A stretch of DNA of 64,000 nt from Luteipulveratus flavus (GTDB lineage Bacteria > Actinomycetota > Actinomycetes > Actinomycetales > Dermatophilaceae), in NCBI RefSeq assembly GCF_029439465.1, contig NZ_JAROAV010000028.1:372001-436000 (forward strand). The letters are read 5' to 3'. The notes beneath the pieces were generated by a model that was not told where the DNA came from, made no database searches, and saw nothing but the letters and a program-made list of their open reading frames with translations. Numbering within the stretch: position 1 is the first letter of the stretch; each line of letters starts with the position of its first letter. The position numbers and the translations under genes were made by a program. Below, one piece after another: positions 39,639 through 48,775 of the stretch.

Positions 39639-40616
39639 ATGTCGGAACGATCGTGGGACGTGGCGTGGCAGGAGGCCCTGTACGGGCCGGACGGGTTCTA
39701 CCGTCAGCCCGCCGGCCCGGCGGCGCACTTCGCGACCTCGGCGCAGGGTCTGCCCGGGGTCGGACGCATCCTCGCCCGAGCGGTCGCCACGCTCTGCCGG
39801 CAGTACGCCCTCTCGAGCATCGTCGAGATCGGCGCCGGACGCGGTGAGCTGCTCGCGACCCTGCACGAGGTCGACCCGGCCCTGAGCCTGCACGGCATCG
39901 ACGTCGTACGCCGCCCACCGGGTCTGCCGGGCGCCGTTGCGTGGTCCACGTCCCCCGGTGGCGCGGCGCTGCCGGACGACCTGGGCGCGCTCGACGGCGT
40001 CCTGGTCCTCGCGCACGAGTGGCTGGACGTCGTACCCCTCACGGTCGGTGAGGTCGACGAGGACGGCTCGCTGCGGGTCGTCCACGTCACGGAGACCGGT
40101 CAGGAGCACCTCGGTGCTCCACTGGGCGAGGCGGATCTGCAGTGGTGCCAGCGGTTCTGGCCGGCGGGCGAGCCGGGCGACCGGGTCGAGGTCGGCGCGA
40201 CGCGGGACCGCGCGTGGGCCGACCTGTGCGCACGGGTCCGGCAGGGGGTGGTCGTCGGCGTCGACTACGGCCACGAGCGCACGGACCGCCCGGCCTTCGG
40301 CACCCTCACCGGCTACCGCGAGGGCGCCCAGGTCCAGCCGGTCCCGGACGGCTCGTGCGACATCACCGCCCACGTGGCCGTCGACTCACTCGACACCAGC
40401 TGGCGGACCCGCCAGCGGGCGCTCCTCACCGAGCTCGGCGTGGTGGCACGCCCGGCGCAGCACGAGATGTCCCGTACGGACCCCGGGCGGTACCTCGCCG
40501 CGCTGGCCGAGCGCAGCGCCGGGCTCAGCGCGACAGCCGCGCAGGGCCTGGGCGACTTCTGGTGGTTCGTACGCGAGATCGGCGTACGGCGTCAGCCGTC
40601 GACGAGCACGTCGTGA
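39639..40616 (+). CDS. MidA/NDUFAF7-like SAM-dependent methyltransferase
   Basis: The 325-residue product has ALYGPDGFYRQPAGPAAHFATSAQ at its N-terminus, the MidA-family hallmark, then SAM motif I IVEIGAGRGELLATL near residues 64-78 and VLAHEWLDVVPL. In eukaryotes the homologue NDUFAF7 methylates an Arg on the NuoD-type subunit of complex I. A nuoD gene lies 5 kb downstream, which makes the link interesting. ATG 39639 begins the conserved SERSWDVAWQEAL segment. Confidence 0.82.
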   Translation: MSERSWDVAWQEALYGPDGFYRQPAGPAAHFATSAQGLPGVGRILARAVATLCRQYALSSIVEIGAGRGELLATLHEVDPALSLHGIDVVRRPPGLPGAVAWSTSPGGAALPDDLGALDGVLVLAHEWLDVVPLTVGEVDEDGSLRVVHVTETGQEHLGAPLGEADLQWCQRFWPAGEPGDRVEVGATRDRAWADLCARVRQGVVVGVDYGHERTDRPAFGTLTGYREGAQVQPVPDGSCDITAHVAVDSLDTSWRTRQRALLTELGVVARPAQHEMSRTDPGRYLAALAERSAGLSATAAQGLGDFWWFVREIGVRRQPSTSTS

Positions 40617-40629
40617 CCGGCGCCGGACG

Positions 40630-41706
40630 TCACGGGACGGGCCGCACGCTGTCGAGGATCCGCTGGGTCGTCGTGTCGTCCAGGGCGTTCGGGACACCGA
40701 GGTCGCGGGTCAGGACGACGGACGCGGTGCCGTTGCCCGTGGTGAAGGAGGTGACGACCACCTCAGTGACTGGTGCGAAGCAACGGCCCGACCGCCGCTC
40801 TGAGTGGGTGACGGTGGCGCGGGACCGCACGGCGAGCGTCCGTCCACCGTTCACCGCGACCTGCTGCGAGGTCACCGACGAGGACGACTCGTACGTCCGG
40901 TCGTCGGACTTCAGGGCCGCGGCTCTGGACCACCGTCCGGCCAGGTCCGGTGCGATGTCCGCCGGGTCCCGGTCCCCCGAGGTCTGGAACACCACCGAGG
41001 CGAGGTTCTGATTCTTGGTGGCAGCGCAGAAACCGGTGCGGTAGCCGGCCGGCCGGTGCCCGTTGATGATCGCCTTCGGCAGCAGCCCACCCGGCGTCTT
41101 CGCCTTGGCGTAGAAGTACCCGGCGTACTCCTGGGAGCTCGTCGAGACGTCCCAGACCGGGTCCGTCGTCGCGCCGACCCCGGCCGCGGCCATCCGGCCG
41201 CGCGGCGGCACGTCGAACGCCGCTTTGTTGCCTGCATCGTCGGTGTCCAGGTCGACCTGCCAGCCCGGCACGAGCGGCTGGACGCCGAGGCCCGGCCCGC
41301 TCGCCGACGGCGCACCGGCGGTCGGCGTCGGTGCCGTGGACGCGGTCGGGGACGGCGTCACGTCACCGGTGGCGCGGTCGGTGCCCTGAGTGCTCCGGTA
41401 CAGCGCGTACCCGCCACCGCCCAGAACCGCCACGCCCACGAGCACGCCGGCCACCAGGAGTGCCGTACGCCGCCCGCGTCCGCTCCCTGCCGGTTCTGAG
41501 GTCTTCGCAGGAGCCGGTGAGGCGGGCGCCTCCGGACGCACCAGATCGCCGTAGTACTGCTGCTGCCCGTGGGCGAACTCGTGCTCGCGCCATGACTCAC
41601 CGAAGGTGCTGCCGAACCGCTGGCCCGACGTCTGCGGGTTGCCGGGCCCGGACGGAGGCTCCGGGCGCCGCGGCAGCCGGTGCCCCTGCGGTCGTTCGTC
41701 GCTCAC
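40630..41706 (-). CDS. membrane-anchored envelope protein, paralog 1 of 3
   Basis: The 358-residue product has a cytoplasmic Pro/Gln-rich N-terminus with FGESWREHEFAHGQQQYYGDL (about residues 35-55), a membrane helix (ALLVAGVLVGVAVLGGGGYALY, about 81-102), a Ser/Thr/Pro linker and an extracellular ~220-residue domain with VPGWQV, GFCAATK, SGDRDPADIAPDLAGRW and TRDLGVPNALDD. Two Cys (in GFCAA and GRCFAP) may form a disulphide. It shares this plan with the next two genes. Function unknown. Confidence 0.8.
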   Translation of the reverse strand: MSDERPQGHRLPRRPEPPSGPGNPQTSGQRFGSTFGESWREHEFAHGQQQYYGDLVRPEAPASPAPAKTSEPAGSGRGRRTALLVAGVLVGVAVLGGGGYALYRSTQGTDRATGDVTPSPTASTAPTPTAGAPSASGPGLGVQPLVPGWQVDLDTDDAGNKAAFDVPPRGRMAAAGVGATTDPVWDVSTSSQEYAGYFYAKAKTPGGLLPKAIINGHRPAGYRTGFCAATKNQNLASVVFQTSGDRDPADIAPDLAGRWSRAAALKSDDRTYESSSSVTSQQVAVNGGRTLAVRSRATVTHSERRSGRCFAPVTEVVVTSFTTGNGTASVVLTRDLGVPNALDDTTTQRILDSVRPVP

Positions 41707-41728
41707 CCTGCTGATCCCCCTCGATGAA

Positions 41729-42952
41729 CTACGGCGCGACCCGCGCCGAGCTGATGATCTTGTTCAGCGTCGCGTCGTCCAGCGCGTCCGGGACGCCGAG
41801 GTCACGGACGGCGACGATCGTCGCGGTGCCGTTCTTGGCCGCGAACGAGGTGACGACCAGCTCGACCTTCGGCGCCGTGCACTTCGTGGGGTCCTGCTCG
41901 GTGTTGGGGATCGTCGTCCTCGACTGCACGGCCGGTGTCTTGCCGCCGTTCACCATGACCTGCTTGGTGGCCGGCGCGGCGTACGACTCGTGCGAGGTCT
42001 TGTCCTTCTTCGTCGACATGACCTTGGCCCAGCGGTCGGCGGTGTCGGGACCGACCTCGGCCGGGTCACGGTCACCGGAGGTCGACCACACCAGGAACGC
42101 CCGGTCCTGGCTGTCGTCGCCGGCGCAGAAACCCTCGCGGTACGACGCGGGCTGGCGGCCGATGACCAGCGCGTCGCCGCCCTTGATGTCGTCACCGAAC
42201 CCGCGGTAGACGGTGTCCGTCGGCGAGCTGAGGCTCCACACCGGGTGCGACGTGGACTTGCCGACGCCCGGGCCCTGGAAGCTGCCCGCCGGGGGGACGT
42301 CGTACAGCCCGCCGTGGTCCTTGTCCTGCCCCTGGACCACCTGCCACCCGGGAACGGTAGGAGACAGACCGCGGCCCGCGATCGGGCCGGGGCTGCTGCC
42401 CGAGGACGGCGCCTGCGACGAGCCACTCGTCGACGAGGGCTGGGTGGTCGTGACGGCGGTCGGCTGCGTGGGCGCCGCCGGGTTCGTGGCGGTGGTGTCC
42501 GACTGGGTGCCGCGGTAGATCGCGTACCCGCCGCCACCGAGGACGGCGACCGCGGCGACCGCCGCTGCCGCGAGGAGTGCCGTACGCCGTCCGGAGGAGC
42601 CGTGCCGGAGTGGACCGATCGGCCCCGACTGCGGTGAGCCGTGCTCGACGGGCGTGCTCTGGGGGCGCTCGTACCCCTGCGGACCGCCGTAGCCCTGCCC
42701 GGCGTCGTTCGCCTGCTGGGGCCCGCGACCGAGGTCGCCGTAGTACCGCTGCTGGCCGTGACCGAACTCCTGCTCGCGCCACGACTCGCCGAACGCGTCG
42801 CCGCCAGCACGACCGCCGTACGGCTGCGCGCCCCCGGAGCCGGGGTACTCGCCGCCGGGCTGCTGCCGGTGCTGTGCGTCGTCCGGGCCGGGCCGCTGCC
42901 CCTGGCCGCGCGGGTCCTGCTGTGGACCGTCACCGTGGGTGTGGTCGCTCAT
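41729..42952 (-). CDS. membrane-anchored envelope protein, paralog 2 of 3
   Basis: The 407-residue product has a longer Gly/Pro/Gln-rich cytoplasmic tail carrying FGESWREQEFGHGQQRYYGDL, nearly identical to paralog 1, then a membrane helix (AAAAVAAVAVLGGGGYAIYRG, about 127-147), a Ser/Thr linker and an extracellular domain with VPGWQV, GFCAGDD, SGDRDPAEVGPDTADRW, KCTAP and VRDLGVPDALDD. It lies 22 bp upstream of paralog 1 in one transcription unit. Confidence 0.8.
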   Translation of the reverse strand: MSDHTHGDGPQQDPRGQGQRPGPDDAQHRQQPGGEYPGSGGAQPYGGRAGGDAFGESWREQEFGHGQQRYYGDLGRGPQQANDAGQGYGGPQGYERPQSTPVEHGSPQSGPIGPLRHGSSGRRTALLAAAAVAAVAVLGGGGYAIYRGTQSDTTATNPAAPTQPTAVTTTQPSSTSGSSQAPSSGSSPGPIAGRGLSPTVPGWQVVQGQDKDHGGLYDVPPAGSFQGPGVGKSTSHPVWSLSSPTDTVYRGFGDDIKGGDALVIGRQPASYREGFCAGDDSQDRAFLVWSTSGDRDPAEVGPDTADRWAKVMSTKKDKTSHESYAAPATKQVMVNGGKTPAVQSRTTIPNTEQDPTKCTAPKVELVVTSFAAKNGTATIVAVRDLGVPDALDDATLNKIISSARVAP

Positions 42953-42980
42953 ACTGCCTGCCTCCGCCTGTCGGTCTCGT

Positions 42981-43778
42981 TCATGGTCCGGTCACTCGGG
43001 TGGGACGCACCGAGCGCAGGATTCGGTCCTTGATGTCGTCCGTCAGCTGCCCGGGGACGTCCAGGTCGCGTACCAGGACGACGGTCGCCGACAGACCCTC
43101 GTTGCTGACCGTCCGAGCGGTCACTTCGACGCGCGGCGGGAGACACCCGGTCGGGTCGGGCTCGTCCAGGGTCACCACCGAGGTCGAGGTCACCGCGGTC
43201 GCCCCCGGGTCGTCGACCGTCCCGGTCGTGCTGCTGACGGGCGAGGTCGGCGAGTGCTGGCGCCCGTCGGCCCGCAGGGACACCGCGCTCGCCCAGACCT
43301 TCGCCACCGCCCGAGAGGGCTCGCCCACGCCCGCAGGCGTGGGAACCACGCCCACCCAGGCCCGGCCCGGTGACGAGCCCCGCGGGCAGAACGCCGCCTG
43401 GAAGTAGGACGGGCTGTTCGCGCTGGCCAGCGGCCTGCCCTGGGCGTCGGCGTACCCCACCGAGTCACCGGGAGTGCCCATCGTCCAGCCGTCCCTCGGC
43501 GCAGGAACCAGATAGCTCTCGTCCGGGGCGCGCACGGTCTGCCAGCGGCCGGCCGGGACGCTCGGGGCGGCGGCCGGGGTCGGCGTGGGAGGGCCCGACG
43601 AGGCCGTGGCACCTCGCGCGGACGGGGAGCCCAGCACCGCGAGGCCCGAGCCGCCGTTCGTCTCGCCGCGCAGGAGGAGCCAGGCCAGGACGCCGACAGC
43701 GACCAGCACGGCCGCGCCGGCGACACCGAGCCCGACACCTCGGCCCGACCGCCGCTGCTGCCCCCCGTGGTTCGTCAC
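42981..43778 (-). CDS. membrane-anchored envelope protein, paralog 3 of 3
   Basis: The 265-residue product is a shorter version: membrane helix right after the N-terminus (VAGAAVLVAVGVLAWLLL, about 19-36) and an extracellular domain sharing AFCPRGS, GCLPPRVEVTAR and VVLVRDLDVPGQLTDDIKDRILRSVRP with the other two. It lacks the FGESWRE cytoplasmic motif. It is the first gene of the three-gene set, 28 bp ahead of paralog 2. Confidence 0.78.
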   Translation of the reverse strand: MTNHGGQQRRSGRGVGLGVAGAAVLVAVGVLAWLLLRGETNGGSGLAVLGSPSARGATASSGPPTPTPAAAPSVPAGRWQTVRAPDESYLVPAPRDGWTMGTPGDSVGYADAQGRPLASANSPSYFQAAFCPRGSSPGRAWVGVVPTPAGVGEPSRAVAKVWASAVSLRADGRQHSPTSPVSSTTGTVDDPGATAVTSTSVVTLDEPDPTGCLPPRVEVTARTVSNEGLSATVVLVRDLDVPGQLTDDIKDRILRSVRPTRVTGP

Positions 43779-43823: not shown

Positions 43824-44375
43824 TCAGTCCGCGGCGGCCTGGCGGGCGCGGTAGGCCGCGACGTTCACGCGGTTCCCGCACCCGGCGTCGCAGTACCGGC
43901 GCGAGCGGTTCTTGGACAGGTCGACGAGAAGGTCCTCGCAGTCGTCCGCAGCACACACCCGCAGGCGGCTCAGCTCGCCGGCGCGGACGACGTCGACCAG
44001 CGCCATCGCCGCCTCCACCGCCATCCGCGTGGCCAGTGGGGCCTGCGGTGTCGTCGCGTGCAGGTGGTAGTCCCAGCCGTCGTGCCTGACCAGCTGGGGC
44101 AGGGCCTGCGCCCGCGCGAGCAGGTCGTTGACGATGCGCACGACGCCGTCCACGTCGCTGGACCAGACCTCGCGCAGCCGGGGGCGCAGGGCGCGGACCT
44201 GCGCCAGCTCCAGGTCGTCGTGGCGTCGCTCGCCGGTCCACCCCCACGACTCGACGAACGCATCCAGCGCAGCCACGTCGGGCAGCTCCTCGACGCTGCG
44301 AGGGCCGTTCGCCTGCGTGTTGACCAGGGCGGCGGCGCTGGCGAGCGCCACCTCGGCGTCATGGGTGAACAACAT
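43824..44375 (-). CDS. CGNR zinc-finger transcriptional regulator
   Basis: The 183-residue product has the ABATE-type N-terminal domain (FTHDAEVALASAAALVNTQ) and a C-terminal CGNR zinc finger: LRVCAADDCEDLLVDLSKNRSRRYCDAGCGNR. It diverges from the EamA exporter gene across 80 bp with GGAG before its ATG, and probably regulates that gene and itself. An AGCC/GGCT inverted repeat around TGATT lies in the shared gap and is a candidate operator. Confidence 0.88.
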   Translation of the reverse strand: MLFTHDAEVALASAAALVNTQANGPRSVEELPDVAALDAFVESWGWTGERRHDDLELAQVRALRPRLREVWSSDVDGVVRIVNDLLARAQALPQLVRHDGWDYHLHATTPQAPLATRMAVEAAMALVDVVRAGELSRLRVCAADDCEDLLVDLSKNRSRRYCDAGCGNRVNVAAYRARQAAAD

Positions 44376-45436: not shown

Positions 45437-45479
45437 CCCAGCCGGTGCGCCCTCGCCGTCCACTGCCGGCTTCATGATG

Positions 45480-45540
45480 GCCGAGTGCGCGTGTCATGTG
45501 GCGTTCCGCCGTGAACGCCGACACGACACGCGCAGTCGGC
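45480..45540. repeat. palindromic intergenic repeat, family 1 copy 2
   Basis: Outer arms 45480-45495 (GCCGAGTGCGCGTGTC) and 45525-45540 pair with one mismatch; an inner stem GGCGTTC/GAACGCC (45500-45506, 45513-45519) makes it a compound hairpin. The outer arm matches that of the copy at 22771. It lies between the EamA gene and nuoD. Confidence 0.65.
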
Positions 45541-45592
45541 AGGCAGGTGGGGGCGCATGCAGGTGTGCCCGGACGGCGGGGAGGCGGCCTGG

Positions 45593-45598
45593 CAGACT
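45593..45598 (+). promoter_or_regulatory. weak -10 hexamer (CAGACT) of nuoD
   Basis: CAGACT ends 7 nt before the nuoD ATG and no ribosome binding site is visible. Confidence 0.3.
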
Positions 45599-45605
45599 GG
45601 CCGGC

Positions 45606-46772
45606 ATGACCCAGGCGCCCCGTGAGCTCACCGTCGGCGTCGGCGCGGGCGGCCTCGCCACGGCCGACATGGTGCTCAACATCGGCCCGCAGCACCCCGC
45701 CACGCACGGCGTCCTACGGCTGCGCATCACCCTCGACGGCGAGCGGGTCCTCAAGGCCGAGCCGATCGTCGGCTACATGCACCGGGGCGCGGAGAAGCTG
45801 TTCGAGGTCCGCGACTACCGCCAGATCCTGGTGCTGGCGAACCGGCACGACTGGCTGTCGGCGTTCAGCAACGAGATCGGCCTCGTGCTCGCGGTCGAGC
45901 GGATGCTCGGCATGGACGTCCCCGAGCGGGCGACCTGGACCCGCACCCTGATGGCCGAGCTGAACCGGGTGCTCAACCACCTGATGTTCCTCGGGTCCTA
46001 CCCGCTGGAGCTCGGGGCCATCACGCCGATCTTCTACGCGTTCCGCGAGCGCGAGGACCTCCAGGCCGTGATGGAGGAGATCTCCGGTGGCCGCATGCAC
46101 TACATGTTCAACCGGGTCGGCGGCCTGCGCGACGACCTCCCCTCGGGCTGGCTCGGCCGGGTGGAGGCGACCATTGCGCAGGTCCGCCGGCGGCTGCCCG
46201 ACCTGGAGAGCCTGATCGTCGGCAACGAGATCCTGCACGCCCGTACCCGCGGTGTCGGCGTCCTCGACGTCGGTGTCGTGACGTCGTACGGCGTCTCCGG
46301 CCCGATCGCCCGCGCGAGCGGCCTCGACATCGACCTGCGGCGCGACCAGCCCTACCTCGCGTACGACGAGGTGTTCGGCGCCGACGGGCCCGGGCGGGTC
46401 GTCACCCGCACGGGCGGCGACTGCCAGGCCCGGCTGGAGGTGCTGCTGGAGCAGGTGCACGTCAGCCTGGACATCGCGGAGTACTGCGTCCAGCGGCTCG
46501 GCTCGCTCGAGCGCGGTCCGGTGAACGTCAAGCTGCCCAAGGTCCTCAAGGTGCCCGAGGGCGCGGACTACGTCGCCACCGAGAACCCTCTGGGGATGAA
46601 CGGCTACTACCTGGTGTCCCGCGGCGAGAAGACCCCGTGGCGGCTGAAGCTGCGGTCCGCGTCGTTCAACAACGTCGCGGTGCTGGGCGAGCTGCTGGAG
46701 GGGACCCTCCTGGCGGACATGGTCGCGATCCTGGGCTCGATGTTCTTCGTCGTGGGCGACATCGACAAGTAG
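45606..46772 (+). CDS. nuoD: NADH-quinone oxidoreductase subunit D, stand-alone
   Basis: The 388-residue product is a full-length 49-kDa-type complex I subunit: [18 protein letters not shown] near the N-terminus, [25 protein letters not shown] and the C-terminal FFVVGDIDK. Residues around the quinone site are retained. No other nuo gene is in the window, so this is an orphan copy. Such stand-alone nuoD paralogs occur in other actinobacteria; partners would be encoded elsewhere. A MidA-like methyltransferase, whose relatives act on complex I, is 5 kb upstream. Confidence 0.93.
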
Positions 46773-46903: not shown

Positions 46904-47812
46904 ATGAAGCTCAGCTCTGCTCGTTCCGTCCGCCGCACGGGAGCGGCCGCAGCCGTGGGAGGCGCGCTCGCCATCGGCCTGGTCGGCCTCTCCTCCGGTC
47001 CGGCCAGCGCGGCCTCGACCGGCACTCTCAACTACTCCTGCGGCATCCCCTCGCTCGGCATCAGCTGGCAGCAGCCCTGGAAGGTCGTCGTGAGCGCCGA
47101 CCTGCCGACCCAGGTCGACCCGGGCGCCAGCCTCGCCGCGCCCTCGGTGAGTGCCACCGTCACCACCGGCACCGACGCCGCGGACCAGCTGCGGTCCCTG
47201 AACGTGAAGACCATCGAGGGCACGAGCGCCGCGACCTACACCGTCAGCGGCGCCGTCGCCAACCCGGGCAGCCGGACCGCGAACCTCACGGTCCCGAAGG
47301 TCACCGTCCCGGCCACCGGCGTCATCGTCACCAAGCCGGCCGGCAGCGGCGTCGCCGAGACGGCCGCGACCACGCCGGGCACGATCACCGCCAAGGTCGG
47401 CGACTTCACCGCCGCCCTGACGACCGACAGCGGCTTCGTCGCCAACGTGGTCTGCACGCTCGCGGCTGGCCAGGACACCACGCTGGGCACCGTCCAGGTC
47501 GGCTCCGCGCCGACCAGCTCGTCCAGCTCCAGCTCGTCGTCCTCGTCCAGCTCGAGCACGTCCAGCAGCTCCACCACGAGCGAGCCGACGGACACCGGCA
47601 CGGGTACGGCAACGGGTACGGACACCGGCACCGCCACGGGTACCGACACCGGCACCGGCACCGGCAGCAGCACCGTGAGCGGCCCGCCCGTGCAGACCGA
47701 CCTCGTCGGTGACGAGGGCTCGTCGAACACCACCGTCGCGCTCGCCGGCCTGGCGACGCTCGGCGGCGTGATCGGCGCCGGCGCCCTGGCCCGTCGCCGG
47801 ACGAAGGGCTAA
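46904..47812 (+). CDS. secreted surface protein with Ser/Thr stalk (DUF6801-like)
   Basis: The 302-residue product has a signal peptide cleaved after ASA (residue 36), a ~165-residue beta-rich domain starting LNYSCGIPSLGISWQQPW with a second Cys near 186, a Ser run and TGTDTGT repeats (about 205-265), a hydrophobic helix (VALAGLATLGGVIGAGALA) and a RRRTKG tail. This is the layout of a cell-wall sorting signal, but no LPXTG or LAXTG pentapeptide precedes the helix. A class F-like sortase is encoded next. AAGGAG precedes the ATG. Confidence 0.8.
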   Translation: MKLSSARSVRRTGAAAAVGGALAIGLVGLSSGPASAASTGTLNYSCGIPSLGISWQQPWKVVVSADLPTQVDPGASLAAPSVSATVTTGTDAADQLRSLNVKTIEGTSAATYTVSGAVANPGSRTANLTVPKVTVPATGVIVTKPAGSGVAETAATTPGTITAKVGDFTAALTTDSGFVANVVCTLAAGQDTTLGTVQVGSAPTSSSSSSSSSSSSSSTSSSSTTSEPTDTGTGTATGTDTGTATGTDTGTGTGSSTVSGPPVQTDLVGDEGSSNTTVALAGLATLGGVIGAGALARRRTKG

Positions 47813-47827
47813 TTTCGACGGAAGATC

Positions 47828-47870
47828 GCGTGAGGGTGGGACCGCCGAAGCGCCGGTCCCACCCTCACGC
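47828..47870 (+). terminator. strong hairpin terminator between stalk protein and sortase genes
   Basis: A perfect 17-bp stem (47828-47844 and 47854-47870) with a 9-nt loop starts 15 bp after the stop of the stalk gene. It probably terminates or attenuates transcription before the sortase gene. Confidence 0.85.
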
Positions 47871-47902
47871 GTCCGACCCTCACCCCCGCGGAAGGACGTC
47901 CC

Positions 47903-48775
47903 ATGGCACCCCAGCGTTCGCTCGCGACCGTCGGCGCCGCGCTGGCCGTCGCCGCGTGCCTGGCCGGCTGCGGTCGGTCCGCCGAGTCCCGCAGCAGCCT
48001 GCCGAGCCAGGCGCCGACCTCGTCCAGCTCCGTTGGCACGTCGAGCTCGCCCTCGCCGGGTTCGTCGAGCCCGGCTCAGAACCCGACGTCCACCGCGCCG
48101 ACCCCGAGCCCGGCCTCGACCGGCTCCGCGCCGGTCGGTGGCGCCACGTCGTCCGGCTCCACGTCGTCCGGCTCCACGTCGGCATCCGGCTCCACGTCCG
48201 GCGGCGCGGGTTCGACCTCGGGTTCGGCAGGCGGCACCGGCGGGTCCGGCGCCGCCACAGCAGGACAGCCGGGAGCCGCCGGCGAGGGTCGCCGCATCGA
48301 CCCGCTCCGTACGACGCCCAGCGGGCGCCCGACCGAGGTCCGGGTGCTCTCCTCCTCCGGCCGTACCCTGCTGCGGCACGCGATCGGCCCCGTCTACCTC
48401 AACGCCCGCGGCGAGCTCAATCCCGCGGGTGGGCAGGCCGGGTGGTACGCCCAGGCCGGCTACGTCCGTCCCGGCCATCCCGGCACATCCGTCCTCGTCG
48501 GGCACATCACCGACGCCGGGCGGCCGGACACCTTCTACAACCTGCCGGACGCACGGGCCGGCGACCGCGTCCTCATCCGCTACTCCAGCGGTCAGGAGGT
48601 GGCCTTCCGGGTCACCCGGTCGGCCGGAGAGGACAAGCGCGCCGCGCAGTACGACGGCTCGATCTGGGGCAAGACCTCCGGACCGTCCCTCCGGCTCATC
48701 ACCTGCGACCTCAGCACCCCGGTCCGCGGCGGCCACCGCACCGGAAACTGGGTGGTCTGGGCGACACCGGCCTGA
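47903..48775 (+). CDS. class F-like sortase, lipoprotein-type N-terminus
   Basis: The 290-residue product has a signal sequence with a Cys (CLAGC, near residue 23), a ~110-residue Ser/Thr/Gly/Pro stalk, and a sortase domain: TSVLVGHITDAGRPDTFYNL with the catalytic His near residue 199, LRLITCDLS with the catalytic Cys near 266, and HRTGNWVVW. Sortases of this class are thought to attach surface proteins; the substrate of this one is unproven. GAAGGA lies 7 nt before the ATG. Convergent with the DUF3180 gene. Confidence 0.88.
   Translation: MAPQRSLATVGAALAVAACLAGCGRSAESRSSLPSQAPTSSSSVGTSSSPSPGSSSPAQNPTSTAPTPSPASTGSAPVGGATSSGSTSSGSTSASGSTSGGAGSTSGSAGGTGGSGAATAGQPGAAGEGRRIDPLRTTPSGRPTEVRVLSSSGRTLLRHAIGPVYLNARGELNPAGGQAGWYAQAGYVRPGHPGTSVLVGHITDAGRPDTFYNLPDARAGDRVLIRYSSGQEVAFRVTRSAGEDKRAAQYDGSIWGKTSGPSLRLITCDLSTPVRGGHRTGNWVVWATPA

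Follow-up and report, generated by a model that had tools for sequence, protein, structure and literature searches.

The PsbP/Mog1 fold is used by accessory proteins in other settings, and its known representatives include the plant and cyanobacterial PsbP proteins, the NDH-associated PsbP-like proteins and Mog1 itself. The exported domain of Apa from M. tuberculosis (PDB 5zx9/5zxa), described as fibronectin-binding, and the actinobacterial envelope proteins LpqN and MTC28 (PF10738) are structurally close to this class. LpqN has been described as interacting with MmpL3 and MmpL11 (review PMC7458404). Here we describe a cluster of three paralogous genes (g1, g2 and g3) in a 64,000-nucleotide stretch of Luteipulveratus flavus DNA (the window). 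Their products are predicted to place a domain of this kind outside the cell, and two of them carry a short motif (the tag) in their cytoplasmic tails.

Gene cluster, membrane architecture and predicted fold

The genes are arranged head to tail on the minus strand in the order g3 (42981..43778; 265 aa, GTG start), g2 (41729..42952; 407 aa) and g1 (40630..41706; 358 aa, GTG start), with gaps of 28 and 22 bp. All three are in the ORF list, and an HMM of the window's exported domains recovers them together with ~40 relatives, nearly all at domain E-values of 1e-46 or better, fragments excepted. This agrees with a sequence-only reading of the DNA, which had taken them for consecutive membrane-anchored paralogs. 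The two tagged proteins, g1 and g2, are 49% identical in a search of their own genome; the tagless g3 is placed by synteny and by a tree, in which it belongs to a separate clade. An ABATE/CGNR zinc-finger regulator gene (Pfam; 43824..44375, minus strand) lies 45 bp upstream of g3 and probably forms one operon with g3, g2 and g1 in the window genome; a scan for promoter- or terminator-like consensus, which is weakly informative at the G+C content of this DNA, returned none. On the other side, a Methyltransf_28 (PF02636) gene (39669..40616, plus strand) converges on g1 with a gap of 13 bp. Divergently from the regulator runs a gene for an EamA transporter, after which comes a nuoD-like gene (Complex1_49kDa; 45474..46772, plus strand). 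At 46904–48775, a DUF6801 gene codes for a product that carries long Ser/Thr repeats and ends in a sorting-like C-terminus; the next gene encodes a sortase domain, and the two products are likely a substrate/enzyme pair.

Hydropathy shows one hydrophobic segment per protein, at residues 80–103 of g1 (41398..41469), 123–146 of g2 (42515..42586; helix 123–147 in the model) and 12–40 of g3 (43659..43745), all on the minus strand. Lys plus Arg counts before and after the span are 4/2, 3/1 and 3/1 in the three proteins. Hydropathy and the positive-inside argument together predict an N-in orientation, with the tail in the cytoplasm and the C-terminal domain outside. A linker rich in Ser, Thr and Pro separates the span from the exported domain (minus strand; g1, 40633..41277; g2, 41732..42361; g3, 42984..43559). 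The g3 protein has this domain, a tail of only ~11 residues and no tag. Alignments of the exported domain reveal two invariant cysteines (Cys276 and Cys358 in g2), presumably joined by a disulfide, an invariant Pro within a (D/E)VP-type motif and an invariant terminal Arg. With regard to a lipoprotein signal, none of the window proteins has a cysteine at the end of the span, both conserved cysteines being in the exported domain. The g1 and g2 domains are 45% identical and have VPGWQ, FC, a second Cys and RDLGVP-ALDD in common. These motifs had been read as shared by all three proteins, which is true of g1 and g2 and fits g3 only loosely, its own forms having diverged to AGRWQ, FC, Cys and RDLDVP-LTDD.

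An AlphaFold2 model of the g2 exported domain, built with 22 relatives, has a pLDDT of 89.0 and a pTM of 0.88. Foldseek ranked PsbP first (E 4.3e-4) and Apa second, and VIA-align gave Z scores of 11.4 for Apa (151 residues, 3.8 Å), ~10–11 for PsbP chains, 8.8 for Mog1, 8.3 for LpqN and 8.2 for MTC28. With Z values of ~9–11 across 140–155 residues for the Apa, PsbP and Mog1 chains, the modelled domain can be assigned with fair confidence to the PsbP/Mog1 fold class, and alignment extends the g2 prediction to g1. Judged from the model, this fold class would say little about function and points to no particular ligand, which leaves the earlier term "receptor" without backing.

No family in Pfam, NCBIfam or PHROG covers the window proteins. 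The sequence-only reading, which had made no family assignment, is thereby borne out at the level of sequence, whereas at the level of fold the domain would belong to a well-known structural class. At E up to 1, no Pfam family matched more than one of 22 members; a PDB sequence search with the family profile gave no match, and a single-protein query for related loci found none. Weak matches to GltJ, anti-sigma, TIGR03931 and DUF families arise from the span and the low-complexity tail and were rejected. TIGR03931, the type VII secretion-associated Rv3446c domain, matched g2 (E 0.02) and g3 (E 0.005) weakly, with scores of 15.2 and 17.1 bits against a curated cut-off of 47.6; the matches start at the membrane span and are gone when the exported domain is scanned alone. 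The LpqN family (PF10738) was likewise rejected, as 0 of 22 members match it at E up to 1 and the hhalign probability is 0.8%; a PF10738 scan of the window's own genome at E up to 1e-10 also came back empty. Membership of the Apa/FAP family by sequence was also rejected, there being no Apa family among the five Pfam families listed for the 22 members.

Distribution, chromosomal site and history of the family

Within the window's taxonomic family, 20 of 186 genomes, from 10 genera, encode the exported domain, with one to four copies each; among 395 genomes drawn from the class, 44 do so (E up to 1e-3). The class-level relatives come mostly from one Streptomyces-like genus and have tails rich in NPYQQPGY. 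Profile-profile comparison (hhalign) of the two sets gave a probability of 99.9% and an E-value of 1.2e-33 over 184 columns, and tagless actinobacterial relatives have a homologous exported domain, with both Cys columns invariant, and a single span. The sole annotated match (NZ_CP016083.1) is a "hypothetical protein". The window proteins are members of a widespread, unnamed family of actinobacterial single-span cell-surface proteins.

The cluster occupies a single conserved place on the chromosome, a slot whose copy number varies and which is empty in at least one relative. The last family copy adjoins the Methyltransf_28 gene, directly or across one P450 gene, in ten long loci and also in shorter loci that include enough flank, and the opposite side consists of ABATE, EamA and nuoD genes or, in genomes G006, G012, G222 and G223, of nuoD directly. 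For G001 and G002, nuoD was not found within the fetched flank; the G020 contig stops at the cluster, and the G147 contig has none of the slot neighbours. In G011 the gene order is kept with no family gene, ~65 bp separating the Methyltransf_28 and ABATE genes. Relatives from other taxonomic families sit at other sites. Many genomes carry the ABATE/CGNR regulator gene without the family, and in G006 and G012 it is found elsewhere on the chromosome; the regulator is not an obligate partner. Given the empty slot and a regulator that occurs without the family or elsewhere, we regard the neighbours as place markers and not as demonstrated partners.

Several other features of these loci deserve mention. 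In G002 and G026, though not in the window, the cluster and the Methyltransf_28 gene are separated by a cytochrome P450 gene (L033 6546–7727 and L034 11069–12253). Small WXG100-like and PPE-like ORFs near the cluster of G002 (L033 14872–15147 and 16549–16836; weak Pfam matches below cut-off) suggest a type VII secretion-type island. The Methyltransf_28 and nuoD-like genes are a few kb apart in most relatives. For this pair, NDUFAF7, which we take to be a PF02636 protein, offers an analogy. It methylates NDUFS2, the mitochondrial counterpart of NuoD (PMC3829151), and the bacterial pair may similarly be an enzyme and its substrate.

In the tree, from which a length filter excluded g2, g3-type proteins form a supported clade of their own together with two proteins of another taxonomic family; g3 has orthologs in three other genomes. 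This separate clade suggests that g3 is an old paralog rather than a recent copy that lost its tag. Apparent tag losses in G113, G114 and G115 were rejected, since the tag was found once the loci were extended past the fetched ends; this leaves one tagless copy in that clade, a truncated one in G012. The simplest reading of the sequences, which depends on the root, would be that the tag arose once within the tagged lineage. G026 encodes three tagged paralogs (L034 8040–11064) with tails nearly identical over ~45 residues and strongly diverged exported domains, and in this genome at least, gene conversion or an exchange of tails has probably played a part. Degenerate family copies are also present: the g3-type copy of G001, in which the span is missing in frame (L032 7884–8642), a frame-shifted third tagged copy in G002 (L033 7727–9438) and the truncated third copy of G012 (L036 9811–10362).

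The cytoplasmic tag and its candidate roles

The motif FGESWRE-EF-HGQQ-YYGDL is present in the cytoplasmic tails of g1 (FGESWREHEFAHGQQQYYGDL; 41542..41604) and g2 (FGESWREQEFGHGQQRYYGDL; 42731..42793), both on the minus strand, and the two 21-residue translations are identical at 18 positions. Local alignment of the g1 and g2 tails scores 137, whereas 5000 shuffled pairs never exceed 102 (mean 44.9, s.d. 7.8). With the tag masked, the score is 37, below the shuffled mean of 43: beyond the tag, the likeness of the two tails is at background level. The earlier claim of a conserved motif in two of the proteins stands, and its conservation reaches across genera. All 18 tagged copies of the first-aligned loci have an invariant Gln, two residues and then YY, i.e. 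a core of Q-x-x-Y-Y. Two flavours track the tree, WR-x-x-EF-GHGQ-x-RYYGDL in G000, G001, G002, G026 and G021 and (N/S)PQ-x-RYY-x-RY in the remaining tagged genomes, with peptide forms such as WREQEFGHGQQRYYGDL and PQDRYYERY. With extended loci, and counting frame-shifted copies in G002 and G223, there are ~34 tagged copies in 19 genomes, all within the window's taxonomic family, and the tail around the tag is unalignable among relatives. One G021 copy has the motif twice, and an unlinked, diverged second family member in G223 retains NPQSRYYDHY. Tagless copies are those of g3 type (G000, G001, G002 and G026), the truncated G012 copy and both G147 copies, which group with a protein of another taxonomic family.

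Tag HMMs run against 23 genomes, 7 of them without tagged genes, returned family members only, bar chance-level matches; in the genomes searched with tag profiles, the tag is private to the family. A look-alike, PQSQYYGDIS (E 0.26–0.45 in five genomes), was judged a chance match; as read in G000 and G021, it belongs to a solute-binding-like protein that has a lipoprotein-type signal and should reside across the membrane from the tag. The sequence RPQSQYYGDIS, within a solute-binding-protein-like sequence, is conserved across two genera (L183, G000:C21:36889-36918; L184). A full-length model of g2 has two short helices (57–63 and 66–71) exactly at the tag, at a pLDDT of ~50, and the rest of the tail is unstructured. 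In pooled data from six pairs of close orthologs, pN is 0.052 and pN/pS 0.18 for the 12-codon tag core; the corresponding values are 0.212 and 0.48 in the remaining tail, 0.156 and 0.42 in the span and 0.156 and 0.38 in the exported domain. The tag amounts to 72 codons in this comparison and was chosen for its conservation, which inflates the contrast with the tail; these values support, without proving, selective constraint on a small sample of a segment picked for being conserved. Together with the retention of the core across genera and in an unlinked paralog, they favour a motif under constraint over one that is simply young.

Because the motif is short, private, slowly evolving and located in a disordered tail, we infer that it serves in docking. 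In the explanation we favour, tentatively and with somewhat less than even confidence, a single-span N-in protein would hold a compact PsbP/Mog1-fold domain outside the cell on a flexible Ser/Thr/Pro linker, and its disordered tail would stay in the cytoplasm. There, the short linear motif with its Q-x-x-Y-Y core would dock either a dedicated cytoplasmic partner or a second family copy, coupling that partner to the exported domain and making the protein an envelope adaptor or scaffold. Since no other protein in the genomes searched has the tag, a partner probably works with this family exclusively or is the family itself; those genomes gave no sign of a general docking code common to many proteins. 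The earlier proposal that the tag binds a common partner has only partial support, as no partner is indicated and only family members carry the tag in the genomes searched. Several points count against docking. No partner was found, and the neighbouring genes also occur without the family (G011; ABATE in many genomes). A family-only motif would equally fit self-association or modification, the choice of the tag for its conservation inflates its contrast with the tail, the helices at the tag are modelled with low confidence, and gene conversion probably plays a part in G026.

The main rival, unlikely in our view, is that the tag is a modification or processing signal, with its tyrosines or the arginine of YYxRY being modified or the tail being marked for cleavage or sorting. 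This could account for two adjacent invariant tyrosines, with an arginine close by in most copies, in an exposed disordered tail. However, conservation goes beyond the tyrosines to the invariant Gln three residues upstream and, in one clade, to WR-EF-GHG; that clade does not retain the second arginine, and presence/absence links no modifying enzyme to the locus.

We consider it improbable that the exported domain is a sensor whose state the tag passes on to a regulator in the cytoplasm, for instance the adjacent ABATE/CGNR protein. The regulator gene does lie 45 bp upstream on the same strand in the window, an order that recurs in most loci, but G006 and G012 combine a tagged gene with a regulator gene located elsewhere, many genomes have the regulator without the family, and the predicted fold indicates no particular ligand. 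The same low weight goes to a role with the nuoD-like and Methyltransf_28 products, in which a soluble NuoD-like protein would be held at the membrane or the tag arginine methylated. Wherever sequence spans both sides, family copies lie between these two genes (directly so in G006 and G012), and the methylation of NDUFS2 by NDUFAF7 (PMC3829151) offers a precedent; against this, G011 has both genes in order with nothing of the family in the interval from Methyltransf_28 to ABATE, relatives from other taxonomic families are located elsewhere, and the conserved order may be mere inheritance.

Still less probable is a tag without separate function, alike through recent duplication or gene conversion: tandem arrays with degenerate copies and the nearly identical tails of the three tagged G026 copies would fit, but the g1 and g2 exported domains are only 45% identical with tails at background beyond the tag, the core is common to several genera and an unlinked paralog, the tag evolves more slowly than all surrounding sequence, and the single-copy genomes G005, G006, G020 and G098, which retain it, largely refute the idea. 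Least likely of all, the tag could be a novel, self-contained docking peptide of a single bacterial family, bringing a dedicated cytoplasmic protein, possibly the neighbouring NuoD-like protein or its putative methyltransferase, to a PsbP-fold envelope protein, in a bacterial parallel to the PsbP-like subunits of chloroplast NDH complexes.

Comparison with known systems

The adaptor or scaffold reading can be set beside the described systems. Apa, the best structural match, is ~10% identical to the exported domain and differs in that it is not described as membrane-anchored with a cytoplasmic tag. The PsbP/Mog1 proteins are alike in fold across nearly the whole domain, but at 7–12% identity and with other compartments and partners. 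LpqN and MTC28 resemble the window proteins in fold class and in being actinobacterial envelope proteins; however, Pfam scans and profile comparison reveal no sequence kinship, LpqN is a lipoprotein, and the comparison with LpqN is an analogy of fold and location only. The Streptomyces-like relatives (~360–440 aa) have the same layout as the window proteins, with a low-complexity tail, one span, a linker and an exported domain with two Cys, and differ in having NPYQQPGY-type tail repeats, no tag and other chromosomal sites.

An actinobacterial membrane-protein family that is absent from the curated libraries searched can now be given a predicted fold and a distribution, and a motif of ~20 residues has been isolated from it. 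Finding a partner would also reveal what a group of hypothetical envelope proteins does; otherwise, this would be one more lineage-specific envelope family. Set against the known systems, the cluster represents a familiar type of actinobacterial envelope protein in a lineage-specific form.
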